From positions 20,476 through 84,475 of IMG/VR virus record IMGVR_UViG_3300044632_000794: 64,000 nt of DNA; one strand, written 5' to 3'. The DNA comes from a virus. Made by a program: the position numbers and the translations under genes. Below, piece after piece: positions 15,909-63,325 of the stretch. The notes under the pieces were generated by a model. The model did not search any database. It saw only the letters and a program-made list of their open reading frames with translations, and was not told the DNA's origin. Position 1 is the stretch's first letter, and every line of letters begins with the position of its first letter.

Positions 15909-15912
15909 TCAA

Positions 15913-23468: not shown

Positions 23469-23476
23469 ATAACTAT

Positions 23477-26619: not shown

Positions 26620-26627
26620 TAGGCTAA

Positions 26628-26701: not shown

Positions 26702-26712
26702 CAGGAGGCATA

Positions 26713-29623: not shown

Positions 29624-29629
29624 TATACT
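29601..29629 (+). promoter_or_regulatory. tRNA promoter TTGATT-17-TATACT
   Basis: -35 29601-29606, -10 29624-29629. Predicted +1 is 29636, two bases before the tRNA-Arg 5' end. It probably also drives ahpC/ahpD. Confidence 0.65.
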
Positions 29630-29637
29630 GATGTTAT

Positions 29638-29709
29638 ACCTCTGTAGCTCAGAGGAAGAGCAACAGACTTCTAATCTGTTGGCCGCTGGTTCGAATCCAG
29701 CCAGGGGTG
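29638..29709 (+). tRNA. tRNA-Arg (anticodon TCT)
   Basis: Acceptor ACCTCTG/CAGGGGT (one G-U), anticodon arm ACAGA-CTTCTAA-TCTGT, T loop TTCGAAT. It reads AGA, the arginine codon that dominates these genes. CCA not encoded. Confidence 0.92.
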
Positions 29710-29710
29710 C

Positions 29711-29723
29711 GATACGTAGTATC
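29711..29723 (+). promoter_or_regulatory. Hairpin immediately after tRNA-Arg
   Basis: GATAC-GTA-GTATC perfect stem-loop beginning two bases after the tRNA discriminator. After tRNA 3' processing, the ahpC mRNA would begin with this hairpin, followed by AAGGAG. Confidence 0.55.
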
Positions 29724-29746
29724 ACCACTTATATATAAGGAGAAAA

Positions 29747-30795: not shown

Positions 30796-30832
30796 ATTGA
30801 TTTCCTTGGTATGAATTAAAACTGCCAGCATT

Positions 30833-30905
30833 GTTCCTATAGCTCAGCTGGTAGAGCAGCAGACTTTTAATCTGCGGGTCGATGGTTCGATACCATCTGG
30901 GGACA
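30833..30905 (+). tRNA. tRNA-Lys (anticodon TTT)
   Basis: Acceptor GTTCCTA/TGGGGAC with two G-U pairs, anticodon arm GCAGA-CTTTTAA-TCTGC, T loop TTCGATA. Reads AAA/AAG. CCA not encoded. Confidence 0.9.
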
Positions 30906-30909
30906 CGCT

Positions 30910-30982
30910 TGGGGATTAGCTCAGCTGGCAGAGCGGGAAACTGTTAATTTCTAGGTCATAGGTTCGATCCCTATATCCCCAG
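30910..30982 (+). tRNA. tRNA-Asn (anticodon GTT)
   Basis: Acceptor TGGGGAT/ATCCCCA, anticodon arm GGAAA-CTGTTAA-TTTCT, T loop TTCGATC. Only 4 nt separate it from tRNA-Lys, so both come from one transcript. Confidence 0.9.
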
Positions 30983-30990
30983 CAATATGA

Positions 30991-31021
30991 TATAATTAAA
31001 ACAGGTCGCCAAACGGGGCCT
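30991..31021 (+). promoter_or_regulatory. Hsp20 promoter -10 with 5'-terminal hairpin
   Basis: TATAAT 30991-30996. Predicted +1 is 31003, the first base of AGGTC-N9-GGCCT (31003-31021). A GAAAGGGGA Shine-Dalgarno precedes ATG 31054. Confidence 0.6.
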
Positions 31022-31053
31022 AAATTAAACTATTCGCTTGAAAGGGGAATAAA

Positions 31054-31470
31054 ATGGTAACACAATTTGCTATGGATCTATTTAAGGATCCATTTTTTAT
31101 TGGCTTCAACAGAGAGTTGGAGCGTTTCAATAGTCTTAGTAAGGTAAACAATACGGCATTCCCGCCATATGATTTGCTAAAGCTAGACGAAGATAACTAT
31201 CAGTTAACTCTGGCAGTTGCTGGATTCACAAGAGAAGATCTGACTGTGTCAATTGAAGACGGAAGTCTTTGGATCACAGGTGAAATTACAGAGGTAACAG
31301 ATGCAGAAATTGTCCACAAGGGAATCGCTGCACGTAAGTTCACAAGAATCTTTGAACTAAGTGAATACATGGAAGTTTCTAGTGTAGAGCTAAAGGATGG
31401 CATGTTGCATATCCGTGTAGTTAGAAATCTACCAAAAGAAAAACAACCAAAAATTCTAAAAATTAAATAA
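31054..31470 (+). CDS. Small heat shock protein, Hsp20/alpha-crystallin
   Basis: 138 aa. The alpha-crystallin domain spans about residues 30-130 with LTLAVAGFTREDLTVSIED, GIAARKFTRIFEL and VELKDGMLHIRV; a terminal I-x-I/V-like motif (PKILKIK) is present. A holdase chaperone, common in phages with large proteomes. Its own leadered promoter suggests strong expression. Confidence 0.92.
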   Translation: MVTQFAMDLFKDPFFIGFNRELERFNSLSKVNNTAFPPYDLLKLDEDNYQLTLAVAGFTREDLTVSIEDGSLWITGEITEVTDAEIVHKGIAARKFTRIFELSEYMEVSSVELKDGMLHIRVVRNLPKEKQPKILKIK

Positions 31471-31521
31471 CCGTGAGACCTGGGTATGTCCAAAAACTGC
31501 CCTTCTAACAGAAAGATTAAA

Positions 31522-32283
31522 ATGATTATACAAATTATTGGATTACCAGGCTCTGGGAAAACAGAACTTGCAAAAGCCTTGAAAGAGCGCATTAATGCTA
31601 TTCACCTTAATGCTGACGAAGTTCGTGCAACAGTAAATTCTGATTTAGGGTTTAGTCTAGACGACAGGCTTGAGCAGGCTCGACGCATGGGAGAGATGGC
31701 AAGGTTAATATCTAAACAAGGTGTTGCTCCAGTAGTTGTTGACTTCGTATGCCCAACGGAACTAACACGATCAGCTTTTGGTAAGCCAGACGTACTTGTA
31801 TTTATGGATACTCTTGCAGAAGGCCGTTTTGAAGACACCAATAAAATGTTTGAACGACCAACAGAGTTTGATGTATCATTTATTAGCCATAACCTAGATG
31901 CAGAAGCAAAGGCGTCTCACATAATTAATAAGTTTAATCTACATGATTGGTCTGCACCTACAACACTTATGCTGGGTAGGTACCAGCCTTGGCACGAAGG
32001 CCACCACGCCCTTTACAAGGAGGCGGGTAAGAGAACAGATCAAGTACTACTTGGAGTACGTAATACATATAATACAAGTGAAAAAGATCCACTTAAGTTT
32101 GATCAGGTAAAGGAATATATTGCCAAAGATGAATTTATGGATGGGGCATTAGTATTAAGACTACCTAACATTACCAATATTGTATATGGTCGTGATGTAG
32201 GATATAAAATTGAGCAAGTAGATTTGGGGGCAACTATACATGCTATTTCAGCTACTGAAAAACGTCGTGAATTGGGCATCTAG
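31522..32283 (+). CDS. APS-kinase-like P-loop kinase fused to a nucleotidylyltransferase domain
   Basis: 253 aa from ATG 31522, preferred over 31486 because AGAAAG lies just upstream and the kinase fold starts at once. The N-terminal half resembles CysC: GLPGSGKTELAKAL, NADEVRATVNSDLGFSLDDR, RRMGEMARL. The C-terminal half has the adenylyl/cytidylyltransferase HxGH motif in GRYQPWHEGHHALY and a later ISATEKR, close to the ISST motif of NMNAT-like enzymes. It could make PAPS or act as a NadR-like bifunctional enzyme with reversed domain order. A PAPS-using sulfotransferase-like gene occurs at 50210. Confidence 0.75.
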   Translation: MIIQIIGLPGSGKTELAKALKERINAIHLNADEVRATVNSDLGFSLDDRLEQARRMGEMARLISKQGVAPVVVDFVCPTELTRSAFGKPDVLVFMDTLAEGRFEDTNKMFERPTEFDVSFISHNLDAEAKASHIINKFNLHDWSAPTTLMLGRYQPWHEGHHALYKEAGKRTDQVLLGVRNTYNTSEKDPLKFDQVKEYIAKDEFMDGALVLRLPNITNIVYGRDVGYKIEQVDLGATIHAISATEKRRELGI

Positions 32284-32362
32284 TATCGGTAAAGGTATTG
32301 CAGATGCAGAAGAAAGAATGATAGAAGAGATGTATAGGAAAAAAGAAGATGAAAGTAACTAA
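32267..32362 (+). CDS. Possible mini-protein
   Basis: 31 aa, GTG start, amphipathic helix rich in Glu/Lys. It overlaps the kinase gene and the DUF2061-like gene. No strong SD. Kept as a low-confidence gene because it fills the gap between two coupled genes. Confidence 0.35.
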   Translation: MNWASSIGKGIADAEERMIEEMYRKKEDESN

Positions 32363-32552
32363 AGCCAGATCATTTGTTAAAGCATTAAGCTATCGCATAT
32401 GGGGAACACTTTCTTCTGTAGCAGTTGCTTATGCTATTACAAAAAATGCTTCTCTATCTGTTACAATTGCATTTTGGGAAACGGTAGTTAAGGTATTTAT
32501 TTACTACGCACATGAGCGTGGATGGAACTATATACAATGGGGGAGAAAATAA
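32349..32552 (+). CDS. DUF2061-like membrane protein
   Basis: 67 aa. RSFVKALSYRIWGTL, then two hydrophobic helices, then YYAHERGWNYIQWG, the DUF2061 signature. As I recall, DUF2061 domains are found fused or adjacent to APS kinases in bacteria, which would fit the upstream gene. A second similar protein is at 46913. Function unknown; inner membrane. Confidence 0.8.
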   Translation: MKVTKARSFVKALSYRIWGTLSSVAVAYAITKNASLSVTIAFWETVVKVFIYYAHERGWNYIQWGRK

Positions 32553-32959
32553 TGTTTGAATATTATGTAAAGAAAGTAAGCAAGGTTGTAGACGGAGATA
32601 CTATTGATGTAGATATTGATCTTGGGTTTGATATATCATTTACTTCAAGAGTCAGGTTAGCTGGGATAGATACTCCAGAAAGTCGTACAACAGATAAAAT
32701 GGAAAAAGCATTAGGTCTTGAAGCCAAAGCTTACCTTAAGAGTGCAATTGACTCAGCTAAATCTGTTGTTATCAAAACAGAAAAGATGGACTCATCTGAA
32801 AAGTATGGTCGCATTTTAGGATGGGTTTTCTTGGACGGATCAGATAAATCTATTAATCAAAAGATGATTGAGGACGGACATGCTTGGGGCTATATGGGAG
32901 AAACAAAGATTAAAGACTTTGACGCATTAGCAAAAGCTAGGAAGAAAAGCGGTAAGTAA
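32552..32959 (+). CDS. Thermonuclease-like (SNase) nuclease
   Basis: 135 aa from ATG 32552 (TAATG with the upstream gene). The staphylococcal nuclease fold is shown by VVDGDTIDVDID, RVRLAGIDTPE, EKYGRILGWV (catalytic Arg) and MIEDGHAWGY. It degrades DNA or RNA non-specifically. No obvious signal peptide, so it probably acts in the cytoplasm, e.g. host DNA turnover. Confidence 0.88.
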   Translation: MFEYYVKKVSKVVDGDTIDVDIDLGFDISFTSRVRLAGIDTPESRTTDKMEKALGLEAKAYLKSAIDSAKSVVIKTEKMDSSEKYGRILGWVFLDGSDKSINQKMIEDGHAWGYMGETKIKDFDALAKARKKSGK

Positions 32960-43521: not shown

Positions 43522-43550
43522 TTGACAAGCAGCACTTTATTTAGTAAAAT
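43522..43550 (+). promoter_or_regulatory. Leaderless promoter TTGACA-17-TAAAAT
   Basis: Perfect -35 at 43522-43527, -10 at 43545-43550, ATG 43558 at +2. The TTG of the -35 is in frame with the gene but lies before +1, so it is not the start. Confidence 0.75.
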
Positions 43551-43557
43551 TAGTCTT

Positions 43558-44532
43558 ATGAAAAAACTAATTGCAGTTGGTCTTATTTCCGTTTCAATTT
43601 CAATTATGGCAACGCCTGCACAGGCAAATTTAAAGACACGGACTTTAGTTCCAACTCTAGCCATTTTAGACACCGCCTTGGATACATCAATACCATTAAT
43701 TAAATCAAGATTATCTGGAGAAGTTTGCATACTTGATTGGCCATCTTGTCCCAATGGTAGTTCTTTTATGGAAGGCGAAGGGTCCACCACTCTTCCAATG
43801 AACATTCTTTCTAATATAAACTTTAGTCACGGTACTCAAATGGCTTCAGTAGCATTGCAAAGTAACCCAGATTTAAATATAGTTTTTGTTAGAATCTTTG
43901 GGAACACTTCATCAGGAGAAAGAGAAAGAACTGGGATTAGTACTTTAGTAAATGCATTAAATTGGGTTAGTGTTAATAGGGAAAAATATAACATAGTTGC
44001 GGTATCTGCATCGCAGGGAGCATCTGGGCCTGTTATTAATAAGCCATCAAACTCAAGCTATTGTGCAGTAACACCTTTAGATAAAGTAGTTACTGATTTG
44101 AGCAACTCTGGTATTCCAGTATTCTTTCCATCTGGAAACAGTGGTGCAGATCCTAGAATGAAAAACAAAATTGAATGGCCATCGTGCATAAGTCAGTCCA
44201 TTGCAGTTGGTGGAGTTTTTGTTAATGATGAAATAGGAAAATCAATTAAGCCAAAGCTTAACATACAAAGTAATTATGACAAAAATCTTGTTGATATCTG
44301 GGGGGAATGGAATAGTAAGTCTATTTACCCTGGTAATATAAATGGAATTTCTATTGGAACTTCTGTTTCAACTCAAGTTATTGCCGCAAAATATGTGGCT
44401 TTAAAGGCTGCAAAGCCAAACTTTTCTTCTGCACAGATAATTACGTTGATGAAATCATCTTCTGATATAGTGGTTAATTCAGCAAAACAAAGGGTTTATT
44501 TATTTAATCTAAGAAAGGCTATCAATGGATAA
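43558..44532 (+). CDS. Secreted subtilisin-like serine protease (S8)
   Basis: 324 aa. Signal peptide ends near ATPAQA (residues 19-23). Catalytic Asp38 (AILDTALD), His near 90 (SHGTQMAS), oxyanion Asn in PSGNSGAD and Ser near 270 (GTSVSTQVIA). Order and spacing fit a compact subtilase. It would act outside the membrane. Expressed from a near-consensus leaderless promoter. Confidence 0.88.
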   Translation: MKKLIAVGLISVSISIMATPAQANLKTRTLVPTLAILDTALDTSIPLIKSRLSGEVCILDWPSCPNGSSFMEGEGSTTLPMNILSNINFSHGTQMASVALQSNPDLNIVFVRIFGNTSSGERERTGISTLVNALNWVSVNREKYNIVAVSASQGASGPVINKPSNSSYCAVTPLDKVVTDLSNSGIPVFFPSGNSGADPRMKNKIEWPSCISQSIAVGGVFVNDEIGKSIKPKLNIQSNYDKNLVDIWGEWNSKSIYPGNINGISIGTSVSTQVIAAKYVALKAAKPNFSSAQIITLMKSSSDIVVNSAKQRVYLFNLRKAING

Positions 44533-47150: not shown

Positions 47151-47945
47151 ATGAAATTTCATTGGATGATCAGGCATGAAGATACAAGCCCAGATGGTTT
47201 AAAAAAAGCTTTTAACTATATTAATAGCTTTGGGTATAACTCATGCATGTTAACTTACCATTCAAGAGAAAATGACATGTTTATTAAGCTTGCTAGGGCA
47301 ATAGACCCAAGCATAGCGTTAAAATATATTATAGCAATGAGAACCTATGCCATAAGCCCAGAGTACCTTGGGCTTATGGTAAAAGGCTTTGAAGAGATTG
47401 CAAAAGATAAGATTATGTTTAATATAGTTGCTGGGGACCTACATGCAAATGAAACTAGTGTAGAGGATATGGTTGATTCTACTATGTTGGCCACATCCCA
47501 GGATAGAGTTAAATACACTGGGTTATGGTTAGAAAAATTCGTTAACTTGGAAATTTTAAAAGGCCGCATTCCGAAGATGTTTATGAGCGGAACTTCAAAA
47601 GCCACATTTGAAAACTGCAAAAAATTTAATGGCGGTGCCATGGTAATGGTTGATTATTATATGGAAAATAAAGAGTTCCTATCTCAATTTGATACCAGGT
47701 GTGTAAGTCTACAGATATGTATTAGAGATACAGATGAAGAAGCTAATGAAGTAAAGCATGCAAATTATGATGGGGACAAGCTAAAGTGGTGCTATTTTTA
47801 TTCAGAAAAGACTTTATTGGAAAAGCTAATTGATCTGAAAAAAAATGGAGTAACTGATATAATGGTTACTGGACTACCATTTGACCCTGAAGTTTATAGG
47901 GTTCATGAATTTATAAAGAAAAATATGGAGATTTTTAATGGATGA
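47151..47945 (+). CDS. Luciferase-like (SsuD-type) monooxygenase-like protein
   Basis: 264 aa. A TIM-barrel pattern like flavin/F420-dependent luciferase-like enzymes: an N-terminal strand MKFHWMI, ARAIDPSIALKYIIAMR, EYLGLMVKGFEEIAKDKI, FNIVAGD, and a late GVTDIMVTGLPFD. Flavin-dependent desulfonation or oxidation is typical of the family. Overlaps the oxygenase gene downstream. Divergent, so moderate confidence. Confidence 0.6.
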   Translation: MKFHWMIRHEDTSPDGLKKAFNYINSFGYNSCMLTYHSRENDMFIKLARAIDPSIALKYIIAMRTYAISPEYLGLMVKGFEEIAKDKIMFNIVAGDLHANETSVEDMVDSTMLATSQDRVKYTGLWLEKFVNLEILKGRIPKMFMSGTSKATFENCKKFNGGAMVMVDYYMENKEFLSQFDTRCVSLQICIRDTDEEANEVKHANYDGDKLKWCYFYSEKTLLEKLIDLKKNGVTDIMVTGLPFDPEVYRVHEFIKKNMEIFNG

Positions 47946-48618
47946 TGTAAAGATAATTAATAATTTTATATCTAAAGAAGATATTGATATATTTAGAAAA
48001 TACATAGACAACAATTGGGAAGATCAGACCTTGTTTAGACATAGGGTTGGGTTAGCATTCAATAAAGGATTAGCAGTGAGAGCTGTTTTCCCAGACGAGA
48101 AGCCAGCATCATTATTTAAAGAGCTAGAAGACATAGTGTATAAACATTCTGAAAAATTTTTAAACCTATCTAAAGATCTTTTTTCTGACGATAGAGAGGT
48201 TTATTTTTATGGCGTATCTATTACTAGATTGAGCAAAGATATTCAAATAAGAATTCACGCAGACATCCATGAAGACTTTAGTGATTTAGTTTATTCTGGA
48301 GTAATGTATTTAAATGATGATTATGAGGGTGGAGAGATAACATTTGTTGATAGCCACGAGTTTACCGAAAAAGATATAAAGATGGATTACTCTAAAGGAT
48401 TGCTGGTTCCATTTCCTATTTATGAAGACTCATTAGGAGGATTTTCCTATAAGCCTGTAGCTGGAGATATTGTTATATTCCCAGCTAATAAGTTGCACGG
48501 AGGTAAGGTGGTAATTGATGGAACTAGGGACGCAATAGTCTTTTGGTCTACGTTATCAAAAGAGTACGCATTTGAAGGTTTTGACTCAGACAGAGTCTTA
48601 AAAAAGATAAGAAGCTGA
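47938..48618 (+). CDS. 2OG-Fe(II) oxygenase
   Basis: 226 aa. RIHADIHEDF (HxD), LNDDYEGGEI, YKPVAGDIVIFPA, KLHGGKVV (distal His) and a basic residue in GTRDAIVFWS. P4H-like, with an insertion between strands. Coupled to the luciferase-like gene, suggesting sequential oxidation of one metabolite or protein. Confidence 0.8.
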   Translation: MDDVKIINNFISKEDIDIFRKYIDNNWEDQTLFRHRVGLAFNKGLAVRAVFPDEKPASLFKELEDIVYKHSEKFLNLSKDLFSDDREVYFYGVSITRLSKDIQIRIHADIHEDFSDLVYSGVMYLNDDYEGGEITFVDSHEFTEKDIKMDYSKGLLVPFPIYEDSLGGFSYKPVAGDIVIFPANKLHGGKVVIDGTRDAIVFWSTLSKEYAFEGFDSDRVLKKIRS

Positions 48619-50209: not shown

Positions 50210-51013
50210 ATGAAGCAGTTGTATTTTTTGCATATTCCAAAAACTGCTGGTAAGTTTATTTCTAGTGAAATATTAAACTCTATACCAAATCATTCAGAAT
50301 CTTTATATATAAGCACTCATTTTCCTAATAACAAAGAGTTTATAAAAGATAAAATATACATATCTGCACATGCTGGAACATATATACCTGAAAATATAAA
50401 AGATATTGATGTGGCTACAGTTGTTAGAAATCCAATTGATGCAAGGGCAAGCTATTTTAATTTTATATATCATATGTATTTAGACACAAGAAAAGAATAT
50501 ATTGATCTTGGTACAATGCGTGAAAAGTTCCTGTATTATTTATTTGAAGATAAAAATTTTTTAATTCACAACAATTATCAAAGCAGATTTTTATGCAATC
50601 CTTCCGATGAAAGATCCTGGGACAGAAAAGCATTTTTTGAAATTCATTCACCTGACATTTTTAAAAAATATCAAGAAGGGCTTGCTTTTGACTGGTTTGT
50701 TGGTAATGAAAATACATCATTGGATTTAGCTATTAAGAATATATCTAATTTTAAAATAAAAAATACTGTAGACAGATTAGATTTATTTTTAAATAGCATA
50801 TCTAAATGGTTTTTATTAAACCATGGGTTGCAAATAAAATTTAATCAAAATGAAAAAACAAATGAAAGCCTATCCACTCATAACGGCGTAGAGTATTCAT
50901 CTAAAGATTTAATAGATTTGCTTACCGAAGAAGAGATTTCTAGCATTTTATATTTAAATAGCATAGACTATGCTGTTTATAATTTTGTAAGGGAGCAAGA
51001 AAAAGATGATTAG
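50210..51013 (+). CDS. Sulfotransferase-like protein
   Basis: 267 aa. FLHIPKTAGKFI is the 5'-phosphosulfate-binding loop of Golgi-type (Sulfotransfer_2) enzymes, and VVRNPIDARASYF is the 3'-phosphate-binding strand. It would transfer sulfate from PAPS to glycan or other hydroxyls. The APS-kinase-like fusion at 31522 could supply the donor. It overlaps the fused oxygenase gene by 8 nt. Confidence 0.75.
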   Translation: MKQLYFLHIPKTAGKFISSEILNSIPNHSESLYISTHFPNNKEFIKDKIYISAHAGTYIPENIKDIDVATVVRNPIDARASYFNFIYHMYLDTRKEYIDLGTMREKFLYYLFEDKNFLIHNNYQSRFLCNPSDERSWDRKAFFEIHSPDIFKKYQEGLAFDWFVGNENTSLDLAIKNISNFKIKNTVDRLDLFLNSISKWFLLNHGLQIKFNQNEKTNESLSTHNGVEYSSKDLIDLLTEEEISSILYLNSIDYAVYNFVREQEKDD

Positions 51014-52307
51014 TGTAAGTCCCAATAGACCAATGAAAGAGCTAGAAGATTTCAATTTTAGGCTTGCAGGATTTTACGATGTAAGCAATATTTTAGATAT
51101 AACTAATTCATTTATAGACGAGTGGAATATATACACTTCAAGACAAAATGAGGTATACGATAATAGAGTTAATCCGCACTTGCATACAAATACATATATT
51201 ATACAGGACCACCCGCTAGATTGGGTATTTGGTCAGCCAATTAAATCTGAGGCAAAAGATAAAAAGTGCTTAGAATCAATATCTCACATAATAAAAAATC
51301 TTGAGGAAGAGATTGTTGGAAAAGCGGCAAGGGTTCTTTTGATAAAGCTTGGATCTAAAAAAGATGTTGCTGTGCACATGGACGGTGGTGACTATTTGTC
51401 AACAGTTAGAAGATTCCATATACCCTTAATAACAAACGATTCAGTGTCATATACTGTTGATAATGAAACTATACACATGAAAGCATCTGAATGTTGGGAA
51501 ATAAACAATCTAAAATACCATTCTGTTAAAAATGATGGCGAAGAAGATAGAATACATCTGCTTGTAGACATATTACCAGAGTATTCTTTTAAGGTGTATA
51601 GTCCTGAATTAGATAAAAAAATAAGAATTGTTGAAAATTTTATATCAGAAGATGAAGCCAACTTTTTTATAGATTACATAAATAAAAATAAAGATGATAA
51701 ATCTAAGTTTCCCTTAACAAAAGGTGAGGTAAGGGGAAAAATTAGAAGCGAGGCTAACATACCAGAGCTCGTACCTTTAAAAAAACATGAAGAGATACTA
51801 GATGCTATAAAAAATATTTCAAAAAGAACAATGGCCGAGTTTAAAGATATTAGTGGGCAGGAAGACCTATGCACCTCAGCTTTTTGGATGACAAGGCTGG
51901 GACCAAAAACTATACTTCCTATGCACCCAGATGATCATAAGTATGCCACACACCTGTACATGAGCTCAGTTATATACCTAAATGAAGATTATGAAGGAGG
52001 CTACTTAAAGTTTGGAGATGTTGATTTAACATATAAGCCTAAAAAGTATAGTGCAGTTTTTTTCCCATCTTCCTATTTGCATGAAGTTACTAGAATAATT
52101 AGCGGGATAAGGATGACTTTGCCAAATTGGGTATCAATCGGTCAAGAAAGAGACATATTCAGAGATAACCCTATAGTGTACGATCCAAGAACTTTGTTTG
52201 GAAGTAATTCTGACGATCCAGCGTTGCCAGCTTTATTTCAAAGTTGGGCTAATGCCAATAACACTACCATTACTGGTTATGACGGAACAGTTTATTCTGC
52301 AAAATAA
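51006..52307 (+). CDS. Fused dioxygenase: Asp/Asn beta-hydroxylase-like plus P4H-like domain
   Basis: 433 aa. The N-terminal half is AspH-like: AVHMDGG (HxD), RRFHIPLITN, ECWEINNLKYHSVKN (distal His) and DRIHLLVD. The C-terminal half (about 205-390) is P4H-like: PMHPDDH (HxD), LNEDYEGGYL, YKPKKYSAVFFPS, LHEV and a basic residue in GIRMT. Both iron sites look intact, so one polypeptide could perform two hydroxylations. TGA/ATG coupling to the sulfotransferase suggests hydroxylate-then-sulfate chemistry, as inference. Confidence 0.82.
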   Translation: MISVSPNRPMKELEDFNFRLAGFYDVSNILDITNSFIDEWNIYTSRQNEVYDNRVNPHLHTNTYIIQDHPLDWVFGQPIKSEAKDKKCLESISHIIKNLEEEIVGKAARVLLIKLGSKKDVAVHMDGGDYLSTVRRFHIPLITNDSVSYTVDNETIHMKASECWEINNLKYHSVKNDGEEDRIHLLVDILPEYSFKVYSPELDKKIRIVENFISEDEANFFIDYINKNKDDKSKFPLTKGEVRGKIRSEANIPELVPLKKHEEILDAIKNISKRTMAEFKDISGQEDLCTSAFWMTRLGPKTILPMHPDDHKYATHLYMSSVIYLNEDYEGGYLKFGDVDLTYKPKKYSAVFFPSSYLHEVTRIISGIRMTLPNWVSIGQERDIFRDNPIVYDPRTLFGSNSDDPALPALFQSWANANNTTITGYDGTVYSAK

Positions 52308-55948: not shown

Positions 55949-55978
55949 TTGACAATTCCTAGTCAACTAGGATATAAT
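55949..55978 (+). promoter_or_regulatory. Leaderless promoter TTGACA-18-TATAAT
   Basis: -35 55949-55954, -10 55973-55978, ATG 55985 exactly at predicted +1. An in-frame TTG in the -35 box is not a start because it lies upstream of +1. Confidence 0.78.
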
Positions 55979-55984
55979 GTAAAT

Positions 55985-56950
55985 ATGATTAAATATCGCT
56001 TAGTAGCATCAATTGCTACATCAATTGTTATGTTCATTTCTCCTGCATATGCAGTTGAGAATGGCACACTATTAACTCAAGATGAGAATGCCGTATATCT
56101 ATTAGATGGCTCAGTAAACGCTTTCTTGTATCAACCACAAATTGTATTCACATCCTCACATGGAATGGATCAGTGGGCTAAAGGTGAGCTATTTGTTAAC
56201 AACAGCTCAGGCCAAAAGTCTAAGGTCGATAAGATACTTATGGCTCCAGGATTTAAAGATAGAATAATTACTAAAGAGGCTATTGCCGCTGGCAAAGCAG
56301 TTTTAAGTCGCTCCAATGACTTTGCAATTCTAATTCTTCAAGAGCCACTTCCAATGACTCAAAAGGTAGATCTAATTAAGAGTAATGATCTTTTAGATAT
56401 AATCCGTAATCAAGAGCCAGTGTATTCAATTGGATATAGCTCATACGACAACACTCGTAAAAAAGATCAGCGTCCAAGGCAACTCGAAGCAAAAATGATT
56501 GATAAAGAATTAGCAAGGCAAATATACGAAGCTTATTACTCAGTTGGACATCCTAATTGGGGGCCAAAGGGATCTACCTTTGAGTTGATAGATATTCAAT
56601 TAGTACACTCTGCAGCAACGGGTTCAGGATGTAACGGAGACTCAGGCAGCGGTTACTTCCTCAAAAGGGGTAACACTAAGGTTTACCTTGGTCCAGCAGG
56701 GGCACATGCTGTTGGTATACCAAACTGTGGGGAACCTGGATTCTGGGGAGACAAAGGTAATGCCTTTGCAGTTGAGCCTGTGTATAAGCACTTAGACCTA
56801 ATAAAGCAGGCTGAGCTAATTGTTGATCAGATGAATGTAAAGCCAGTAGAGCCCACTGTAAAGCCCACACCACAGCCTACTGCAACACCAAAGGCGGGAA
56901 GAAAGAAAGCCTTCAGATATATACATAAAACATCTCATAGGTGTCTATAA
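55985..56950 (+). CDS. Secreted trypsin-like serine protease
   Basis: 321 aa. Signal peptide MIKYRLVASIAT...SPAYA. Catalytic His in FTSSHGMD, Asp in SNDFAILIL, Ser in CNGDSGSGY, so the triad looks complete. Cys near the active-site Ser may form a disulfide with a later Cys. The C-terminus is a Pro/Lys/Thr linker with a basic end. It acts outside the membrane; with the subtilase it makes two exported proteases. Confidence 0.82.
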   Translation: MIKYRLVASIATSIVMFISPAYAVENGTLLTQDENAVYLLDGSVNAFLYQPQIVFTSSHGMDQWAKGELFVNNSSGQKSKVDKILMAPGFKDRIITKEAIAAGKAVLSRSNDFAILILQEPLPMTQKVDLIKSNDLLDIIRNQEPVYSIGYSSYDNTRKKDQRPRQLEAKMIDKELARQIYEAYYSVGHPNWGPKGSTFELIDIQLVHSAATGSGCNGDSGSGYFLKRGNTKVYLGPAGAHAVGIPNCGEPGFWGDKGNAFAVEPVYKHLDLIKQAELIVDQMNVKPVEPTVKPTPQPTATPKAGRKKAFRYIHKTSHRCL

Positions 56951-58228: not shown

Positions 58229-58573
58229 TTAGAATGAATCTAAGTCCATTATGTATTTGCTATCTCTTACTCTTGTTTCTTTCAAGGAGTCTATTGTTAG
58301 GTTTCTATCCACCGCTCCATATTTTGCTTCCAGCATATCATTGAGCGCATCTGCTAAAAGCAATCCTTCGGATGTATATCCTTTATCCCATTCTGACTTT
58401 AATCTAAGGGAATTGTATTGGATAATGTATCTAACTAGTTCCATTAGCCTGTCTTGGGTGTACAAGGTATGTTCAGTTGTTAATACATTTGCCATTACGG
58501 CAGGGGAGAAGTTAGCATTGTTTAGATAGTCTGTTAGTTTTTCTGCTGCTTTGAATTCGTTCGCTTTAGCCAT
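58229..58573 (-). CDS. Hypothetical protein
   Basis: 114 aa, start preceded by GAAAGAGGTGG. Predicted helical (EKLTDYLNNANFSPAVMANV). No recognised motif. Monocistronic under promoter 58597-58626, downstream of the Lsr2-like gene's terminator. Confidence 0.65.
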   Translation of the reverse strand: MAKANEFKAAEKLTDYLNNANFSPAVMANVLTTEHTLYTQDRLMELVRYIIQYNSLRLKSEWDKGYTSEGLLLADALNDMLEAKYGAVDRNLTIDSLKETRVRDSKYIMDLDSF

Positions 58574-58596
58574 TGAGTTCCACCTCTTTCGTTTTG

Positions 58597-58626
58597 ATTA
58601 TACCATTGGGCACTGACATTTGTAAA
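58597..58626 (-). promoter_or_regulatory. Right-arm promoter A (TTTACA-18-TATAAT with TGTCAGTG)
   Basis: Minus-strand TATAAT (58602-58597), N8, TGTCAGTG (58618-58611) and TTTACA (58626-58621). SD GAAAGAGG before the start. Confidence 0.65.
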
Positions 58627-58631
58627 TGAAG

Positions 58632-58661
58632 GGGGACCTGCCTCCGAAGAGGAAGGTCCCC
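58632..58661 (-). terminator. Terminator of the Lsr2-like gene with UUCG tetraloop
   Basis: On the minus strand, GGGGACCT / AGGTCCCC encloses CCTC-TTCG-GAGG, giving a long stem capped by a stable cUUCGg loop, 12 nt after the stop codon. Followed by CTTCATTT. Confidence 0.75.
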
Positions 58662-58672
58662 ACAGTTAGCTA

Positions 58673-58825
58673 TTACTTGACGTTCTTCTTGTCTGTGAAG
58701 ACTACGCCTTCTTGTGCTGCCTTGCTGATAGCTCCTAGAGCTGCAGCTGAGAAGCGGCCACGCTTGCCCACAGAAATTCCCTGGGCCTTGAGGTACTCAC
58801 GAGTTGTTGTTGGTGTTGATGTCAT
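58673..58825 (-). CDS. Lsr2-like C-terminal DNA-binding mini-protein
   Basis: 50 aa. REYLKAQGISVGKRGRFSAA aligns with the Lsr2 C-terminal domain, whose RGR loop inserts into the minor groove of AT-rich DNA. The N-terminal oligomerisation domain of Lsr2 is absent, so it could compete with host Lsr2 as a dominant-negative. SD GAAAGGATC. Promoter with a dyad in its spacer suggests control, possibly auto-regulation. GC is higher than in neighbours. Confidence 0.75.
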   Translation of the reverse strand: MTSTPTTTREYLKAQGISVGKRGRFSAAALGAISKAAQEGVVFTDKKNVK

Positions 58826-58861
58826 TTGGTTTGATCCTTTCTAGATCGAGTTGTTATATAT

Positions 58862-58890
58862 ATTATATCCGAATTTCGGGGATTTGTAAA
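58862..58890 (-). promoter_or_regulatory. Ls2-like gene promoter TTTACA-17-TATAAT with dyad
   Basis: Minus-strand -35 58890-58885 and -10 58867-58862. The spacer contains CCGAA-N-TTCGG. R element copy 3 overlaps this promoter. Confidence 0.65.
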
Positions 58891-58918
58891 TAGGGGCCGT
58901 AAAGCAATATTTTTGCCC
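58875..58918. repeat. R element copy 3
   Basis: TTCGGGGAT ... CCGTAAAG ... TTTTTGCCC; most divergent in the first block. Overlaps the Lsr2-like promoter. Confidence 0.55.
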
Positions 58919-58935
58919 GTGCCCTTAGATTATGA

Positions 58936-58962
58936 CCGTTATGTCTGAATTGTCCATAACGG
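58936..58962 (-). terminator. Hairpin downstream of 58983 gene
   Basis: CCGTTATG-N11-CATAACGG, perfect 8-bp arms, 20 nt after the stop of the minus-strand gene. No T-tract; terminator or processing signal. Confidence 0.45.
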
Positions 58963-58982
58963 CCCAACCTATCTTTATTTAG

Positions 58983-59159
58983 TTATACTTCTATTTCTTC
59001 GATGTTATATGGTTCAATCGTGTCATCAGTTGAAACTTCTGTCCAGCCCTCTACAGGAATACGAAGGGCTGATTCCCAAGCAAGGTCGTGAGACTCTGCA
59101 TTAATGACTACAGAAAACTTCTGCGTTCGGTCCCCGTAGATTTTATAGTCTTGTCTCAT
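58983..59159 (-). CDS. Hypothetical small acidic protein
   Basis: 58 aa. Alpha/beta; RTQKFSVVINAESHDLAWESA looks like a small ferredoxin-like unit. ATGA overlap with the upstream gene. Function unknown. Confidence 0.6.
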   Translation of the reverse strand: MRQDYKIYGDRTQKFSVVINAESHDLAWESALRIPVEGWTEVSTDDTIEPYNIEEIEV

Positions 59160-59293
59160 AGTTCCACCTGTTCTATCTTATCTTTAATTAACTTAGCAAT
59201 GATGTTGTGTGCCTCGATGTTTTCTGTTTCGGACCCACCCCACAAAAGTTTTTGGGCTGTAATAAGTTGATCGTTTAAGTACTTATCACTCAT
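59156..59293 (-). CDS. Hypothetical small helical protein
   Basis: 45 aa, helical, overlapping both neighbours (8 nt upstream, 4 nt downstream). Function unknown. Confidence 0.6.
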   Translation of the reverse strand: MSDKYLNDQLITAQKLLWGGSETENIEAHNIIAKLIKDKIEQVEL

Positions 59294-59618
59294 CTTCATC
59301 TTCGTCCTCCTCTTCTTCTTCATCAGGGTCTACGATGTAATCCCTGCTCATCATCCAATCTAAAACTTCTTCTTGATGTTGCTCGGCGCCCCACTCTAGA
59401 GAGAAGCCCATACCAGCCTCTACAGCCTCACACAGGTGGTCCCACATCTCGTCTTGGGTTGCCTTGGCAACATAGGTGTCATCGTCTAGGATGTTATTAA
59501 TAGTTGACCATGTCCATAGCCAAACAAGCGATAGGCCAAGGTCGGTGGTGTCTAGAATTTCTAAACATTCATTTAGTTTATCTTTATCTTCAGGCTTCAC
59601 CACGTGCTCCAATCGCAA
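59286..59618 (-). CDS. Hypothetical protein with acidic tail
   Basis: 110 aa. Trp-rich helical body, ending in a run of Asp/Glu (about 13 acidic residues), DNA-mimic-like. Overlaps the upstream gene by 29 nt. Could titrate a basic host protein, speculative. Confidence 0.6.
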   Translation of the reverse strand: MRLEHVVKPEDKDKLNECLEILDTTDLGLSLVWLWTWSTINNILDDDTYVAKATQDEMWDHLCEAVEAGMGFSLEWGAEQHQEEVLDWMMSRDYIVDPDEEEEEDEDEDE

Positions 59619-59868
59619 ATGATAGTTGGTATGTTAGTTCATATAGTGCTACTAGGGCGTCAAGGTACCCTTCGCATTCAGTACGGACCATAGAGTCCAT
59701 TGCTTCTTCTGATTCTTCTTCCCGTTCGATTGCGTCTGCTAGTTCCTGCTCGGCAATTAGCATTAGATTTTTTAGTTCACCGTGCATTATATCTAATCCA
59801 CTAACACCTGCATTAACCAAACGTTGCAAATGGGGCGGGAGCCCAAGGTCTTCCATAGTCATATCCAT
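59590..59868 (-). CDS. Hypothetical helical protein
   Basis: 92 aa, starting MDMTMEDLG after GAAAGGG. All-helical, acidic centre. Driven by promoter B, which lies inside the preceding coding sequence. Confidence 0.65.
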   Translation of the reverse strand: MDMTMEDLGLPPHLQRLVNAGVSGLDIMHGELKNLMLIAEQELADAIEREEESEEAMDSMVRTECEGYLDALVALYELTYQLSFAIGARGEA

Positions 59869-60074
59869 TAATATACCCTTTCGTTATTATTCATTATATC
59901 AGTTGCCACTGACAATAAATGTTCGGTTGCTTCAATTGCTCCTTGGAAGTAATCATCTGAAGGGTCATATTCATCATCCTTCAAAGGCTCCCCATTTTTA
60001 GTAGCCTCCCAATCTTGATTAAGACTAATTAGATGTAACTTCATATACTCTAGGAAATAAGATGATTTAGTCAT
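59868..60074 (-). CDS. Hypothetical protein
   Basis: 68 aa, helical, Asp/Tyr-rich. TAATG coupling on both sides. Its last codons encode promoter B of the next gene. Function unknown. Confidence 0.6.
   Translation of the reverse strand: MTKSSYFLEYMKLHLISLNQDWEATKNGEPLKDDEYDPSDDYFQGAIEATEHLLSVATDIMNNNERVY
59893..59914 (-). promoter_or_regulatory. Right-arm promoter B (TGTCAGTG-N8-TATAAT)
   Basis: Minus-strand TATAAT 59898-59893 and TGTCAGTG 59914-59907, embedded in the 3' end of the 59868-60074 gene. SD AACGAAAGGG follows. Confidence 0.65.
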
Positions 60075-60271
60075 TACTTAATTCCCTTCGTTTCAGCATA
60101 ATGCTTAAGAGCCTTATTAATTAGTTCTCTGTTCTCTGCTTCTTCTTGTTCAACTTTTTGCTCATGTTCTCTAATTTTTTCTTCCATCTCAAGTTCGCTT
60201 TTAGCATTTTCCCATGCGCTAACTAGCATAAGCATACCAAATATAACAGCAAAAACCATCCATATTTCCAT
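60074..60271 (-). CDS. Single-TM protein with coiled coil
   Basis: 65 aa from ATG 60271, which overlaps the upstream stop (TAATG); SD AGAAGGG lies in that gene. N-terminal TM helix (WMVFAVIFGMLMLVSA) then a Glu/Lys coiled coil. Function unknown. Confidence 0.6.
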   Translation of the reverse strand: MEIWMVFAVIFGMLMLVSAWENAKSELEMEEKIREHEQKVEQEEAENRELINKALKHYAETKGIK

Positions 60272-60429
60272 TAGTCGAAATACCCTTCTGCCCATAGTCC
60301 TTGTAAGAAATCATGGGCGGTTACTAGATAGTTATGAATAGCAGGATTCTCATCAGGATTAATCAACAAGTCAGCTTGATATACTCCATATGTCATATCT
60401 GCTAAATCTTTTTGTGTATAACCTAGCAT
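60271..60429 (-). CDS. Hypothetical small protein
   Basis: 52 aa, SD GAGGAG, TAATG coupling at both ends. Helical, aromatic-rich C-terminus (DFLQGLWAEGYFD). Function unknown. Confidence 0.6.
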   Translation of the reverse strand: MLGYTQKDLADMTYGVYQADLLINPDENPAIHNYLVTAHDFLQGLWAEGYFD

Positions 60430-60659
60430 TATTTCTCCTCATCATATTCTAAATAGTATTGGTCGCCTGGATTTAAATCATAGAATAGATTAAATCTACC
60501 CTTTAAGTAATTGTTATCTGACATTTCTGCAAATCTAAAATCTGCAAACATTTGCCCTTCATCTAAATTAGAGTTGACCCAATCTTCGACAAGCATTTCT
60601 CCTATCTCAGAATATGTTGCGTCTATTACCATTTGATTTTCATTCTCTAGAAAACTCAT
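60429..60659 (-). CDS. Hypothetical acidic protein
   Basis: 76 aa, overlapping the Api92-like gene by 4 nt. Acidic, aromatic-rich end (YDLNPGDQYYLEYDEE). Function unknown. Confidence 0.6.
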   Translation of the reverse strand: MSFLENENQMVIDATYSEIGEMLVEDWVNSNLDEGQMFADFRFAEMSDNNYLKGRFNLFYDLNPGDQYYLEYDEEK

Positions 60660-61399
60660 TCGGTTCCCACCTTTCTATATTCGGGTACTTTAGTTTCTAA
60701 GTATATAGCATGGGTCTGACAAATTGCGACAGCATCTAGGTCAGCCTCTCCTAGCCAATTGCAATTGCCACAAATCTGACCGCAGTCATTGTCGCAATAC
60801 TCCATTTGATTAGTTGCATCACAATCACGACACATGTTGTCGTATTCTGATTCTGAGATAACTTCTCCACGGAGGAATTCCATTTCTCCACCCCAGCCTG
60901 TTTCTTCTTCATATGATAAAGTAAATAGTAATGTTGGGTATTGTGCAGATAGTTTAGATATAGCCCCAAGAGGTCGTGACCATGCAGTATTAAAGTTGTA
61001 ATGGACTACATGATTTTCAGCGTTCTCATAATCTTCCATAGTTGTATCAGGATACTTATCATCCTCGGCTACAGCCACATCCCACTTAGTACCCCATTCA
61101 CGGTTATTAAAGTTGTACCAGTCATTGGTCTCAAACTTCATCCAGTCGGCAAATGAAGAGTCGGCGGAACTAGGAGGTTGTCCATGATACTCAGTATCAG
61201 ATACACCATGGTCTACATATGAATAGATATTATGAAAAGCAAAGATAGGATTAACATACTTACGTTGCTTGATATTAAATGATAAATCACCATTAGATTG
61301 AACTGAATAAACAAATGGCTTATTCATTTGCTTAATTAAAGATTTAACTTGGTCAGGATTTCCCTCAATAGTTAAACCGTTATATACCCAATTTGGCAT
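60656..61399 (-). CDS. Api92/YubB ferredoxin-like domain protein
   Basis: 247 aa from ATG 61399, with CGAAAGGAT upstream; a longer frame to 61483 would start before the -10 box. MPNWVYNGLTIEGNPDQV is the hallmark N-terminus of the family found on phages and plasmids. A central Trp/Gly beta region (EEETGWGGEMEFLRGEV) is followed by a multi-Cys zinc module (CRDC, CDNDC, CGNC). Function unknown; often an early gene. Confidence 0.8.
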   Translation of the reverse strand: MPNWVYNGLTIEGNPDQVKSLIKQMNKPFVYSVQSNGDLSFNIKQRKYVNPIFAFHNIYSYVDHGVSDTEYHGQPPSSADSSFADWMKFETNDWYNFNNREWGTKWDVAVAEDDKYPDTTMEDYENAENHVVHYNFNTAWSRPLGAISKLSAQYPTLLFTLSYEEETGWGGEMEFLRGEVISESEYDNMCRDCDATNQMEYCDNDCGQICGNCNWLGEADLDAVAICQTHAIYLETKVPEYRKVGTE

Positions 61400-61426
61400 T
61401 TTATATCCTTTCGTTGATATGTGATA

Positions 61427-61448
61427 ATTATACATTGGACCACTGACA
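61427..61448 (-). promoter_or_regulatory. Right-arm promoter C (TGTCAGTG-N8-TATAAT)
   Basis: TATAAT 61432-61427, TGTCAGTG 61448-61441 on the minus strand. Leader of about 20 nt to ATG 61399 carries AACGAAAGG. Confidence 0.65.
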
Positions 61449-61513
61449 AATGGAATAGGATTGGCATGTGATACATGCCACATGATTCAACTTTGTGGTC
61501 AAGATCACACAAA

Positions 61514-61557
61514 TTCCAGAGAATATAGTTGACAGTCGTAAAGACAATATGCTACCC
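61514..61557. repeat. R element copy 4
   Basis: TTCCAGAGAAT ... TCGTAAAG ... CTACCC, 22 bp between block starts. About 65 bp upstream of promoter C. Confidence 0.65.
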
Positions 61558-61580
61558 TCAAGTCTTTGCGGGCAATAGAA

Positions 61581-61603
61581 AACCCCCAGCTATGCTGGGG
61601 GTT
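61581..61603 (-). terminator. Strong rho-independent terminator
   Basis: AACCCCCAGC-TAT-GCTGGGGGTT, a perfect 10-bp stem with a 3-nt loop; on the minus strand it is followed by TTCTATT. Second terminator after the 61728 gene. Confidence 0.85.
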
Positions 61604-61705
61604 ATGAATATGGCTGCTGATTTCCAACGAAAGAAATAAACCGCTTTACTTAGCGCCTGGCCCTAAAGACTAATAGACGCACCATTTCATTTCTATATTA
61701 AAACC

Positions 61706-61719
61706 AGGACCAAGGTCCT
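61706..61719 (-). terminator. Terminator of 61728-62093 gene
   Basis: AGGACC-TT-GGTCCT with flanking pairs, followed on the minus strand by GGTTTTAATA, about 10 nt after the stop codon. Confidence 0.65.
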
Positions 61720-61727
61720 AGGTCTAA

Positions 61728-62093
61728 TTATACCATAACTAGTCGACTGTATTTATCTACAAATGACGCCAAGGATGATGTGAACACTACCGTGCTCAGG
61801 TCCTCTTCGTACAATGTAAACGTTTCGTTGGTCCAGTCAATTACGGGCACCTTATGTTCGTTGTCCCCTAGTTGGTTAACATAAATTCCCCAGCCTGTTG
61901 TCTGAGTCCAGTCTTCTCCAATTAGATTAGATATAGCAATACGTGTTGCATATGACTCGTCTTGCCAACGAGTTTCTGCAGCCTGCACAGCATTTGCTAA
62001 TTTGGCTAGCATATTATGTCCAGCCCAGTGTCCATATAGAAATACTACATTTTCCTTGGAATCTCTGAATCCAAAGTTTGCTCTGTCTCCCAT
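61728..62093 (-). CDS. Hypothetical conserved phage protein
   Basis: 121 aa. MGDRANFGFRDSKENVVFLY is a recognisable N-terminus of a family in actinophages; mixed alpha/beta with GWGIYVNQLGDN. SD AACGAAAG. Co-transcribed with the upstream zinc protein. Function unknown. Confidence 0.65.
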   Translation of the reverse strand: MGDRANFGFRDSKENVVFLYGHWAGHNMLAKLANAVQAAETRWQDESYATRIAISNLIGEDWTQTTGWGIYVNQLGDNEHKVPVIDWTNETFTLYEEDLSTVVFTSSLASFVDKYSRLVMV

Positions 62094-62094
62094 T

Positions 62095-62283
62095 TTATTC
62101 TGCTTTCGTTAGTAGTTGATTTTCCTCGTAGTTGAGTAATTGTACCATTTCATGGGCCCAGTCCACAAGAGACTCGCCCTGTTTATTTTTATGGTGGCCG
62201 CAGAAGTAAAGAGAAAATGAATCTTTCTTTGCTTCCCACATAGCCTGAGCTGCACACTGGTCACACTTAAGCCATTCAGCCAT
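62095..62283 (-). CDS. Small zinc protein resembling actinobacterial DUF7455
   Basis: 62 aa from ATG 62283. CDQCAAQAMWEA then FCGHH matches, from memory, the short C-x2-C...C-x2-H fold typical of Actinobacteria (CDRCGAQA...FCAHH). TGATG coupling to the upstream gene. A host-lineage marker. Confidence 0.65.
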   Translation of the reverse strand: MAEWLKCDQCAAQAMWEAKKDSFSLYFCGHHKNKQGESLVDWAHEMVQLLNYEENQLLTKAE

Positions 62284-62429
62284 CACAGTTTGCCACCTTC
62301 GATCATCTCAGATAGACGGTCAAGAATCCAAGAATCGATATCATTAATATCAATCTCTGATAACTTTTCCATGATTTCATCACGAGCAAACTTGTAACCA
62401 TCTGCCCAACCATCTTTATACTCTGACAT
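62283..62429 (-). CDS. Hypothetical small helical protein
   Basis: 48 aa, SD AAGGAGAG. Helical (YKFARDEIMEKLSEIDI). Function unknown. Confidence 0.6.
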   Translation of the reverse strand: MSEYKDGWADGYKFARDEIMEKLSEIDINDIDSWILDRLSEMIEGGKL

Positions 62430-62438
62430 AATCTCTCC

Positions 62439-62642
62439 TTAATAACCTGTGGTTTCGTGGTCTGATACATAAGATTCAGTTAAGTTGTACTTATCTCTAA
62501 GCCTACTTACTTTCTCAATACTACCAGTTCCGATGTTGAATGTCAACGCAGACATTGCTTGTGGGTCAAGTCCCGTTATCTCTGCATCCCAATACGCTCT
62601 CTGCATAGAGAGCATATCAGGAGCGGTAAGTTCAAAGTACAT
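62439..62642 (-). CDS. Hypothetical protein
   Basis: 67 aa, TAATG-coupled to the upstream gene. Helical, no motif recognised. Confidence 0.6.
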   Translation of the reverse strand: MYFELTAPDMLSMQRAYWDAEITGLDPQAMSALTFNIGTGSIEKVSRLRDKYNLTESYVSDHETTGY

Positions 62643-63088
62643 TAGTTCTCCCTTACATTACATACCTCAGTGTCAACAATTTCAATGTTGCCATTTTGTG
62701 AATCAACATAAAGATTGTCGTAGATTTCTTGTTCTACATCTGTATCTGAATCAGCAAGTAAATCTAACTGAATAGTTCCGCTAACTTCAATTGTTGCAGA
62801 CCACTCAACTTCTCTAGTTAACTCAATCTCAAGGGCTTCGGCAATTAAACGAAGTGTTTCTTGGTCATCTGAATCGCTATAGGCTTCAACAATAATATCT
62901 TTAACTGAAGCAATCTTATTTGTTAAGACTGAAGCAATTTTAGAGTTAGTCCGTGAGTTATGTAGTTCCCATTCAATGTTGCGAACCTTGTCGGTTGCAT
63001 ATTCAGGGTCAGAGTAATTGCTTACAATCTTATAGGTAACCAATAGGTCAGGGTTATATTCTACTGCAGGTGATACTGTTGTTTCCAT
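62642..63088 (-). CDS. Internal in-frame product of the 62642-63289 gene
   Basis: 148 aa from ATG 63088, preceded by AACGAAAGAGGAG at SD distance and by promoter D. Same stop as the longer form. Contains EIELTREVEWSATIEVSGTI and an acidic C-terminal region. This short form is probably the main product. Function unknown. Confidence 0.6.
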   Translation of the reverse strand: METTVSPAVEYNPDLLVTYKIVSNYSDPEYATDKVRNIEWELHNSRTNSKIASVLTNKIASVKDIIVEAYSDSDDQETLRLIAEALEIELTREVEWSATIEVSGTIQLDLLADSDTDVEQEIYDNLYVDSQNGNIEIVDTEVCNVREN

Positions 63089-63289
63089 TTGCTCCTCTTT
63101 CGTTGTTGTTGGTGTAATTGTAGCATGCTCCACTGACAATAAGGTAGTCTTACGTCCGCAAGGGCATGTGAGTTCTGTCACACCTGATGGGAATCCAAAC
63201 CCGTCAGATGATGTTAGTTCTATTAATGAATCGCATTCATCTGGGTCACAGACAAAGGTGTACTTACTTGATACTAGTTCGTTGGTCAT
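62642..63289 (-). CDS. Zinc-domain protein with nested internal gene
   Basis: 215 aa from leaderless ATG 63289. Residues 1-57 form a zinc module (CDPDEC...CPCG). Residues 68-215 are an acidic alpha/beta domain that also has its own promoter and SD at 63088, so the gene probably makes two products in one frame. Function unknown. Confidence 0.65.
   Translation of the reverse strand: MTNELVSSKYTFVCDPDECDSLIELTSSDGFGFPSGVTELTCPCGRKTTLLSVEHATITPTTTKEEQMETTVSPAVEYNPDLLVTYKIVSNYSDPEYATDKVRNIEWELHNSRTNSKIASVLTNKIASVKDIIVEAYSDSDDQETLRLIAEALEIELTREVEWSATIEVSGTIQLDLLADSDTDVEQEIYDNLYVDSQNGNIEIVDTEVCNVREN
63117..63138 (-). promoter_or_regulatory. Right-arm promoter D (TGTCAGTG-N8-TACAAT), inside coding sequence
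   Basis: TACAAT 63122-63117, TGTCAGTG 63138-63131 on the minus strand, in codons encoding LSVEHATI of the long form. Confidence 0.65.
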
Positions 63290-63296
63290 AAAGAGA

Positions 63297-63325
63297 ATTG
63301 TACCAGGTCCCACTGACATTATCAA
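63297..63325 (-). promoter_or_regulatory. Right-arm promoter E (TTGATA-17-TACAAT with TGTCAGTG), leaderless
   Basis: -35 63325-63320, TGTCAGTG 63318-63311, -10 63302-63297; ATG 63289 at +2. The only promoter of this class that is also leaderless. Confidence 0.7.

Follow-up and report, generated by a model that had tools for sequence, protein, structure and literature searches.

What reads a short, strictly phased element that recurs ahead of the -10 boxes of a viral gene block? The window analysed here, a stretch of 64,000 nucleotides (nt) covering positions 20,476-84,475 of the 84,475-base viral record IMGVR_UViG_3300044632_000794, carries five exact copies of the octamer TGTCAGTG, every one on the minus strand of the right arm (58,611-63,318) and exactly 8 nt ahead of TATAAT or TACAAT. 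The original prediction described this arrangement as a novel promoter motif. Its sequence, spacing and position equal those of the published RecA-NDp/PafBC promoter, and on this sequence evidence we consider it very probable that these promoters are RecA-NDp/PafBC-dependent and that the right-arm block extends the LexA-independent damage regulon governed by PafBC of the host.

The five octamers and their -10 boxes (Table 1) were borne out at the coordinates originally proposed, and the octamer occupies positions -28 to -21 at each of them. An order-2 Markov model gave a chance expectation of 1.2 octamers on both strands and of 0.0015 octamer plus TAYAAT pairs, and the chance of finding five phased octamers out of five was about 4e-15. 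Over the whole record, the pattern TGTCRGTG-N8-TANNNT returned five matches and the reversed pattern none. The relaxed core TGTCRG-N10-TANNNT returned in the window the five strict sites and a sixth, weaker site (TGTCAGACCCATGCTATATACT, Table 1) that had been overlooked and that is identical in the relatives G001, G006, G007 and G009; all six sites lay on the minus strand and none on the plus strand, while the TGTCRG core placed at spacers 8, 9, 11 and 12 showed 0 to 2 matches. The element was thus absent from the left arm, as had been noted, with no further copy in the record for the strict form or in the window for the relaxed form. Degenerate copies were not enriched, as the octamer with one mismatch was observed 27 times in the window against 43 expected and the complete motif, allowing as many as three mismatches, 19 times against 17. 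The separate -35-like hexamers pointed out at two promoters were recovered as well, TTTACA at 58618 and TTGATA at 63318 each matching TTGACA at five of six positions, and no such hexamer was present at the other three sites, which matched TTGACA at 1 to 3 of 6.

The same phasing was found in related viral loci, the best 80 of 167 relatives retrieved through the Api92-like gene located behind the promoter at 61,448; counts over these loci come from related sequences and do not represent independent events. Both strands were searched, identical contexts were merged and octamers lying less than 20 bases from the start or less than 40 from the end of a locus were omitted. All 189 distinct-context copies of TGTCAGTG were in forward orientation and had TANNNT at exactly N8, so that no octamer occurred unphased away from a -10 box. 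Strict sites numbered 409 in forward and 0 in reverse orientation, with at least one in 79 of the 80 loci, and 70 loci carried the strict motif at the Api92-like gene itself. The pattern TGTCRG-N10-TANRMT was found 633 times forward and once in reverse, and the other spacers from 6 to 14 gave 0 to 3 matches each.

Whole records were available for 14 of the 80 loci and each of them carried 5 to 11 strict sites, with no match to the reversed pattern; the sites were one-stranded, barring single ones in G006 and G007. In seven of these long relatives, examined for it, the relaxed core occurred 12 to 19 times on the strand of the block (12 to 17 once four sites present at both ends of G011 are counted singly) and 0 or 1 times on the opposite strand. 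The relative G001 (117 kb) matched the window at 100% identity in a comparison of 6,679 bases; 15 sites lie within 21,275-32,672 (11 kb) of G001 and another at 56,186. The record of the window stops inside the promoter-bearing block, which in G001 extends further upstream. The two ends of G011 (L324 and L325) form an exact repeat of 3,269 bases carrying the four relaxed sites twice, which suggests that the block may lie in or beside terminal repeats. Upstream of the block, a region of about 3.4 kb (L321, approximately 12,800-16,220; 32.8-36.2 kb in G001) holds only short open reading frames (ORFs) on the minus strand, mostly with TTG starts.

The anatomy of the promoters was derived from 170 distinct contexts, reduced to 49 sharing less than 75% identity; as they were chosen by TGTC[AG]GTG-N8-TANNNT, these columns are fixed by construction. 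The consensus read WW-TGTCAGTG-G-NNN-M-TGn-TAYAAT, with A or T before the octamer, a G following it in 83% of the contexts and A or C at -16. The dinucleotide TG of an extended -10, at -15/-14, was present in 30 of the 49 contexts against 2.8 expected. Bases 7 and 8 of the octamer are variable, since besides TGTCAGTG the forms TGTCAGAC (102 occurrences) and TGTCAGCC (9) recur ahead of extended -10 boxes, and the core came in two flavours, either TGTCAGTGG or TGTCAG(A/C/T)CC. A second set was rebuilt on the forward strand only with different end limits (185 distinct contexts, 49 kept). In this set a TTGACA-like hexamer (at least 5 of 6 bases) at spacer 16-18 was found in 14 contexts and in none of two shifted controls, indicating a mixed architecture for some promoters. 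Past the -10, the first ATG was located at 6-7 nt in 15 contexts, at 20-35 nt in 31 and at 1-2 nt in 3, and the first class suggests leaderless mRNAs for 15 of the 49 promoters. A leaderless mRNA is likewise likely for the window promoter at 63318, whose ATG is only 7 nt past the -10. Three window promoters (59,914, 60,721 and 63,138) are located inside reading frames, and an in-frame ATG at 63088, past the last of these, would yield a short form of 148 amino acids (aa).

In mycobacteria, the response to DNA damage is activated mainly by PafBC. In the published work compared here, the consensus of the RecA-NDp/PafBC promoter, a LexA/RecA-independent damage promoter, is printed as tTGTCRgtg-8 nt-TannnT (PMC5656591), and the M. 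tuberculosis element as TGTCGG, TGTCAG or TGTCAC-10N-TA-3N-T with essential directionality (PMC8151990). PafBC is described as the activator of the RecA-NDp promoter, a promoter type reported from other actinobacteria as well (PMC8223512); the helix-turn-helix (HTH) of PafB contacts the -26 element, that of PafC contacts domain 4 of sigma A, and single-stranded DNA (ssDNA) is given as the activating signal (PMC11804915). RecA-NDp promoters are also described in several Streptomyces; in S. coelicolor, SCO6735 reportedly has one, and a primer for this gene holds TGTCAGTG-N8-TACGGT (PMC5087735).

The viral sites resemble these mycobacterial and actinobacterial promoters, recA P1 among them, in core sequence, spacing, position and orientation. 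The core is TGTCRG, usually TGTCRGTG, in the five strict window sites and TGTCAG in the sixth; the 8 nt between octamer and TAnnnT are invariant in the related loci; and the element lies near -26, in one direction, ahead of genes. They differ from the host promoters in being carried by phages, in forming one-strand clusters, in the frequent TGn and in the presence of two core flavours. The earlier interpretation of a phased activator site, too near the -10 to serve as a -35 box, agrees with the published promoter, whereas the claim of novelty does not hold for the motif. Although the element is known, phages using it seem to be a new finding, and the titles and abstract beginnings of the open-access papers searched disclosed no earlier case of a phage with PafBC promoters.

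Two other damage-linked systems were compared. The SiwR-dependent dinS operon promoter of M. smegmatis is similar to the PafBC system in its WYL activator, its -26 element and its association with genotoxic stress, but that element is described as a conserved GGA triplet, unlike the TGTCRG of the phage sites (PMC10693628). A promoter of this type was ruled out, as the five window sites read the octamer at the corresponding positions, not a GGA triplet. Phage genes under LexA/SOS control, as in a predicted prophage cluster of S. venezuelae, are likewise tied to the DNA-damage response of the host (PMC9380542); that system operates by release of a repressor at SOS boxes, whereas the block described here has a predicted activator site.

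The protein reading the motif was then considered. No WYL domain was found in 15 phage records, and neither Sigma-70 region 2 nor region 4 above the cut-off was found in 13, which may be fragments. As no WYL or complete sigma gene was found in the phage records searched, PafBC of the host is the simplest reader, a proposal built on the motif, its spacing, position, orientation, clustering and conservation together with this absence. Since the phage promoters match actinobacterial DNA-repair switches, the damage alarm of the host probably switches on the viral gene block. By analogy with the published work on PafBC, from which its action and the ssDNA signal are carried over, ssDNA exposed while the phage replicates, through recombination or as host DNA is broken down would be bound by the WYL domains of host PafBC. 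RNA polymerase containing sigma A would engage the -10 box, often an extended TGn type and mostly lacking a good -35, and would be stabilised by PafB reading TGTCRG(TG) near -26 and by PafC holding sigma domain 4, so that about 15 small gene units might be turned on jointly. We infer that the host possesses PafBC and that PafBC acts on the phage promoters, and the timing proposed for infection is likewise inferred. If phages do place a large gene block under PafBC, infection itself must trip the ssDNA alarm of the host. The block would then supply PafBC promoters of natural origin, would allow phages whose hosts bear PafBC to be recognised from sequence alone and would offer a testable account of gene timing in this phage group.

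The window encodes a WhiB-like transcription factor (Table 1), and WhiB was detected in 11 of 17 motif-bearing records, comprising every one of the 8 long group records and 3 of the 9 others, the 6 records without a match being mostly fragments. Among 14 control genomes WhiB was found in C. glutamicum only, and it has been presented as an actinophage marker in two reports (PMC10202952, PMC6802176). The best terminase matches, among those listed, were Streptomyces phages of the Stanwilliamsviridae with 59-64% identity, and RecA showed 53-57% identity to the same family in its best 25 matches. WhiB and the terminase point to an actinobacterium as host, and the virus, with a G+C content of 36.4%, is an actinophage, probably one infecting aquatic actinobacteria; a freshwater origin is presumed for the virus and its relatives. 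No paper joining Planktophila with PafC was found in the open-access literature, and the one listed for Nanopelagicales together with DNA damage concerned Acidobacteriota.

The Stanwilliamsviridae (Streptomyces phages Gilson, Coruscant, Faust and their kin) resemble the window virus in terminase and RecA and differ from it in lacking the strict motif, which was absent from all 8 that were fetched (genomes of 126-134 kb). The comparison comprised 15 named phages, these 8, one each of Rhodococcus, Gordonia and Tsukamurella, and 4 of other phyla. The relaxed core occurred in 3 of the 15 (the phages of Tsukamurella, Maribacter and Microcystis), a single time in each, and the motif with one mismatch gave 33 sites in the 9 closest phages against 41 for the reversed pattern. 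The promoter set is one gained in, or retained by, an uncultured branch.

Several observations weigh against the assignment to host PafBC. The strict motif was present in none of the 15 named phages, the nearest ones included, and the relaxed core in none of the 9 closest. An initial search is reported not to have found the M. smegmatis PafBC motif conserved in S. venezuelae (PMC9380542), and ClgR is also reported to recognise the RecA-NDp motif (PMC5656591). Some of the promoters with a TTGACA-like -35 may act without an activator. A 51-aa open frame at 23005-23100 of the window matches the Sigma-70 region 4 HTH with 21.8 bits against a cut-off of 24.1. Finally, the relatives of the phage AhpC protein in genomes are proteobacterial, mostly Burkholderiales, and not actinobacterial (best 80 of 304); the assignment of a host through this protein was rejected. 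The gene in question, encoding an AhpC-like peroxiredoxin, is followed by a CMD-family (AhpD-like) gene (29747-30795).

WhiB-like proteins contact sigma domain 4. The presence of WhiB in the phage, the weak region 4 match in the window (one of three below the cut-off, in G000, G001 and G010) and a block that is dense and phage-wide would fit a phage-encoded activator or sigma-like protein reading the octamer, the likeness to PafBC being convergence or imitation. We regard this as unlikely, since convergence would have to reproduce a host element in sequence and also in its exact spacing, the domain searches returned the negative results given above and WhiB was unseen in the six records mentioned. 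The phage-modified RNA polymerase and the repressor site proposed in the original prediction are unsupported and were rejected.

A slightly less probable alternative than a phage-encoded reader is that these are mostly constitutive sigma A promoters, with an extended -10 or a -35 plus a -10, with the octamer giving weak help from upstream or serving a different host factor such as ClgR. The excess of TGn, the -35-like hexamers of the 14 contexts and the report on ClgR are in its favour, but all 189 octamers, although chosen without regard to a -10, were phased to one. Moreover, at the Api92-like gene 8 of the 80 loci had no strict site and 2 were unjudged (one with less than 70 nt upstream, one without a start pattern), and in 6 of the 8 (L058, L061, L064, L065, L066 and L069, L065 and L066 being alike) TTGACA-N17-TAGAAT was found instead, with no octamer there. 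Over the whole loci, the density per 10 kb of coding strand was 1.7 for PafBC-type and 5.2 for TTGACA-type sites in these 8 (1.0 TTGACA-type on the other strand), whereas it was 5.9 and 1.3 in the other 72 (0.4 on the other strand), a contrast that is partly built in because the groups were defined at one gene, and in which the TTGACA-type counts include mixed sites and some that may be chance. This exchange of promoter types is counted in favour of the PafBC reading, and these relatives constitute a natural experiment on an activator site replacing a -35 box. In L061, L064, L069 and L072, mixed promoters were observed with TTGACA or TTGACG 18 bp ahead of the -10 and TGTCAGTG between them. An operator bound by a repressor, or a signal for packaging or replicating DNA that overlaps promoters by chance, would also be repeated, phased and oriented on one strand, but is very improbable for an element that is non-palindromic, linked to the -10 and to downstream start codons, and replaced by a TTGACA promoter in relatives.

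Returning to PafBC-type promoters, their distribution beyond this phage group was explored in IMG/VR. A scan for TTGTCAGTG-N8-TATAAT returned at least 120 stretches, against 25 in all for spacer 9, and proteins of the group were encoded in 105 of the 120 spacer-8 stretches listed against 3 of the 25 with spacer 9. Among the 15 listed stretches without clear group membership, 14 had one site each, which may be chance, and L265 had three sites ahead of small genes; L265 showed one weak match to group proteins and no match to phages in a distant blastn search. A G+C-rich -10 pattern was near chance by number, with at least 120 stretches against 106 at a longer spacer. Two or more sites were present in 11 of the 120 loci listed, and the 106 control loci (915 kb) had 2 sites in total. 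Among the 11 were L327, with 9 sites over 3.4 kb, and L341, with 10 over 9.2 kb, in both cases confined to a single strand; overlaps were noted of L389 and L425 with L359, and of L416 with L443. Whole records of nine multi-site loci showed 2 to 14 sites and no reversed pattern. Group proteins were absent from L341, gave five weaker matches in L327 and were numerous in L359 and L397, and the window terminase was present in 3 of 16 records (G001, G029 with 72% and G016 with 56% identity), several of the others being short fragments. Similar clusters occur, then, in some phages that have few or none of the group proteins, an observation in favour of the PafBC reading. Three G+C-rich loci, L383, L416 and L443, had sites on either strand and may represent chance matches or host DNA. 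It is possible, although we lean slightly against it, that several actinophage lineages have placed an early or replication-linked programme of at least 12 promoters each in the host PafBC regulon, with ssDNA from their own replication or from degraded host DNA as the clock and gene-by-gene swapping with plain housekeeping promoters among sub-lineages of one group.

The promoters precede small genes, most of them without a name. PHROGs searches with 17 right-arm proteins gave a family match for 5, one of which had a named function (Lsr2-like, 58,825-58,676). Pfam searches with 6 of these proteins gave two matches above the cut-off, Api92-like (PF18406) and DUF932, the Lsr2 match being below it. 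The Api92-like gene had no match among 50,697 phage records, so that no named relative was found through it.

Table 1. Predicted promoters and associated features of the window.
Feature	Position	Strand	Details
Predicted PafBC-type promoter, TGTCAGTG-N8-TATAAT	58597-58618	-	-10 at 58602; extended -10 (TGg); TTTACA at spacer 18
ORF, 114 aa, no family	58573-58229		ATG 23 nt past the -10 of promoter 58597-58618
Predicted PafBC-type promoter, TGTCAGTG-N8-TATAAT	59893-59914	-	-10 at 59898; extended -10 (TGa); within the 3' end of ORF 60074-59868
ORF	59868-59590		ATG 24 nt past the -10 of promoter 59893-59914
Weaker predicted promoter, TGTCAG-N10-TATACT	60700-60721	-	Within the upstream reading frame, ahead of ORF 60659-60429
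Predicted PafBC-type promoter, TGTCAGTG-N8-TATAAT	61427-61448	-	-10 at 61432; 27 nt ahead of the Api92-like gene (PF18406), start 61399
Predicted PafBC-type promoter, TGTCAGTG-N8-TACAAT	63117-63138	-	-10 at 63122; extended -10 (TGc); within the reading frame of the gene behind promoter 63297-63318
Predicted PafBC-type promoter, TGTCAGTG-N8-TACAAT	63297-63318	-	-10 at 63302; extended -10 (TGg); TTGATA at spacer 17; ATG 63289
Promoter-bearing gene block, portion in the window	58229-63318	-	
WhiB-like transcription factor, PF02467	40758-41150	+	E-value 4e-12

Further genes were observed elsewhere in the window. Seven ORFs matching the 2OG-Fe(II) (2-oxoglutarate/iron) oxygenase family (PF13640) are located at 5118-5696, 17372-20473 (three adjacent), 24006-24593, 47938-48618 and 51006-52307; the ORF at 24006 was below the cut-off and one ORF also has an Asp/Asn hydroxylase domain. 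Subtilase and trypsin-like proteases, secreted-looking by eye, are encoded at 43522-44532 and 55949-56950. A protein of 1232 aa (1420-5118) contains an extended NTI repeat, and its C-terminus, beginning with CHVFGTQI, looks intein/Hint-like by eye, Pfam returning a weak fn3 match only. Finally, a 265-aa ORF at 31486-32283 has an APS-kinase-like P-loop domain, its second half appearing nucleotidyltransferase-like by eye.

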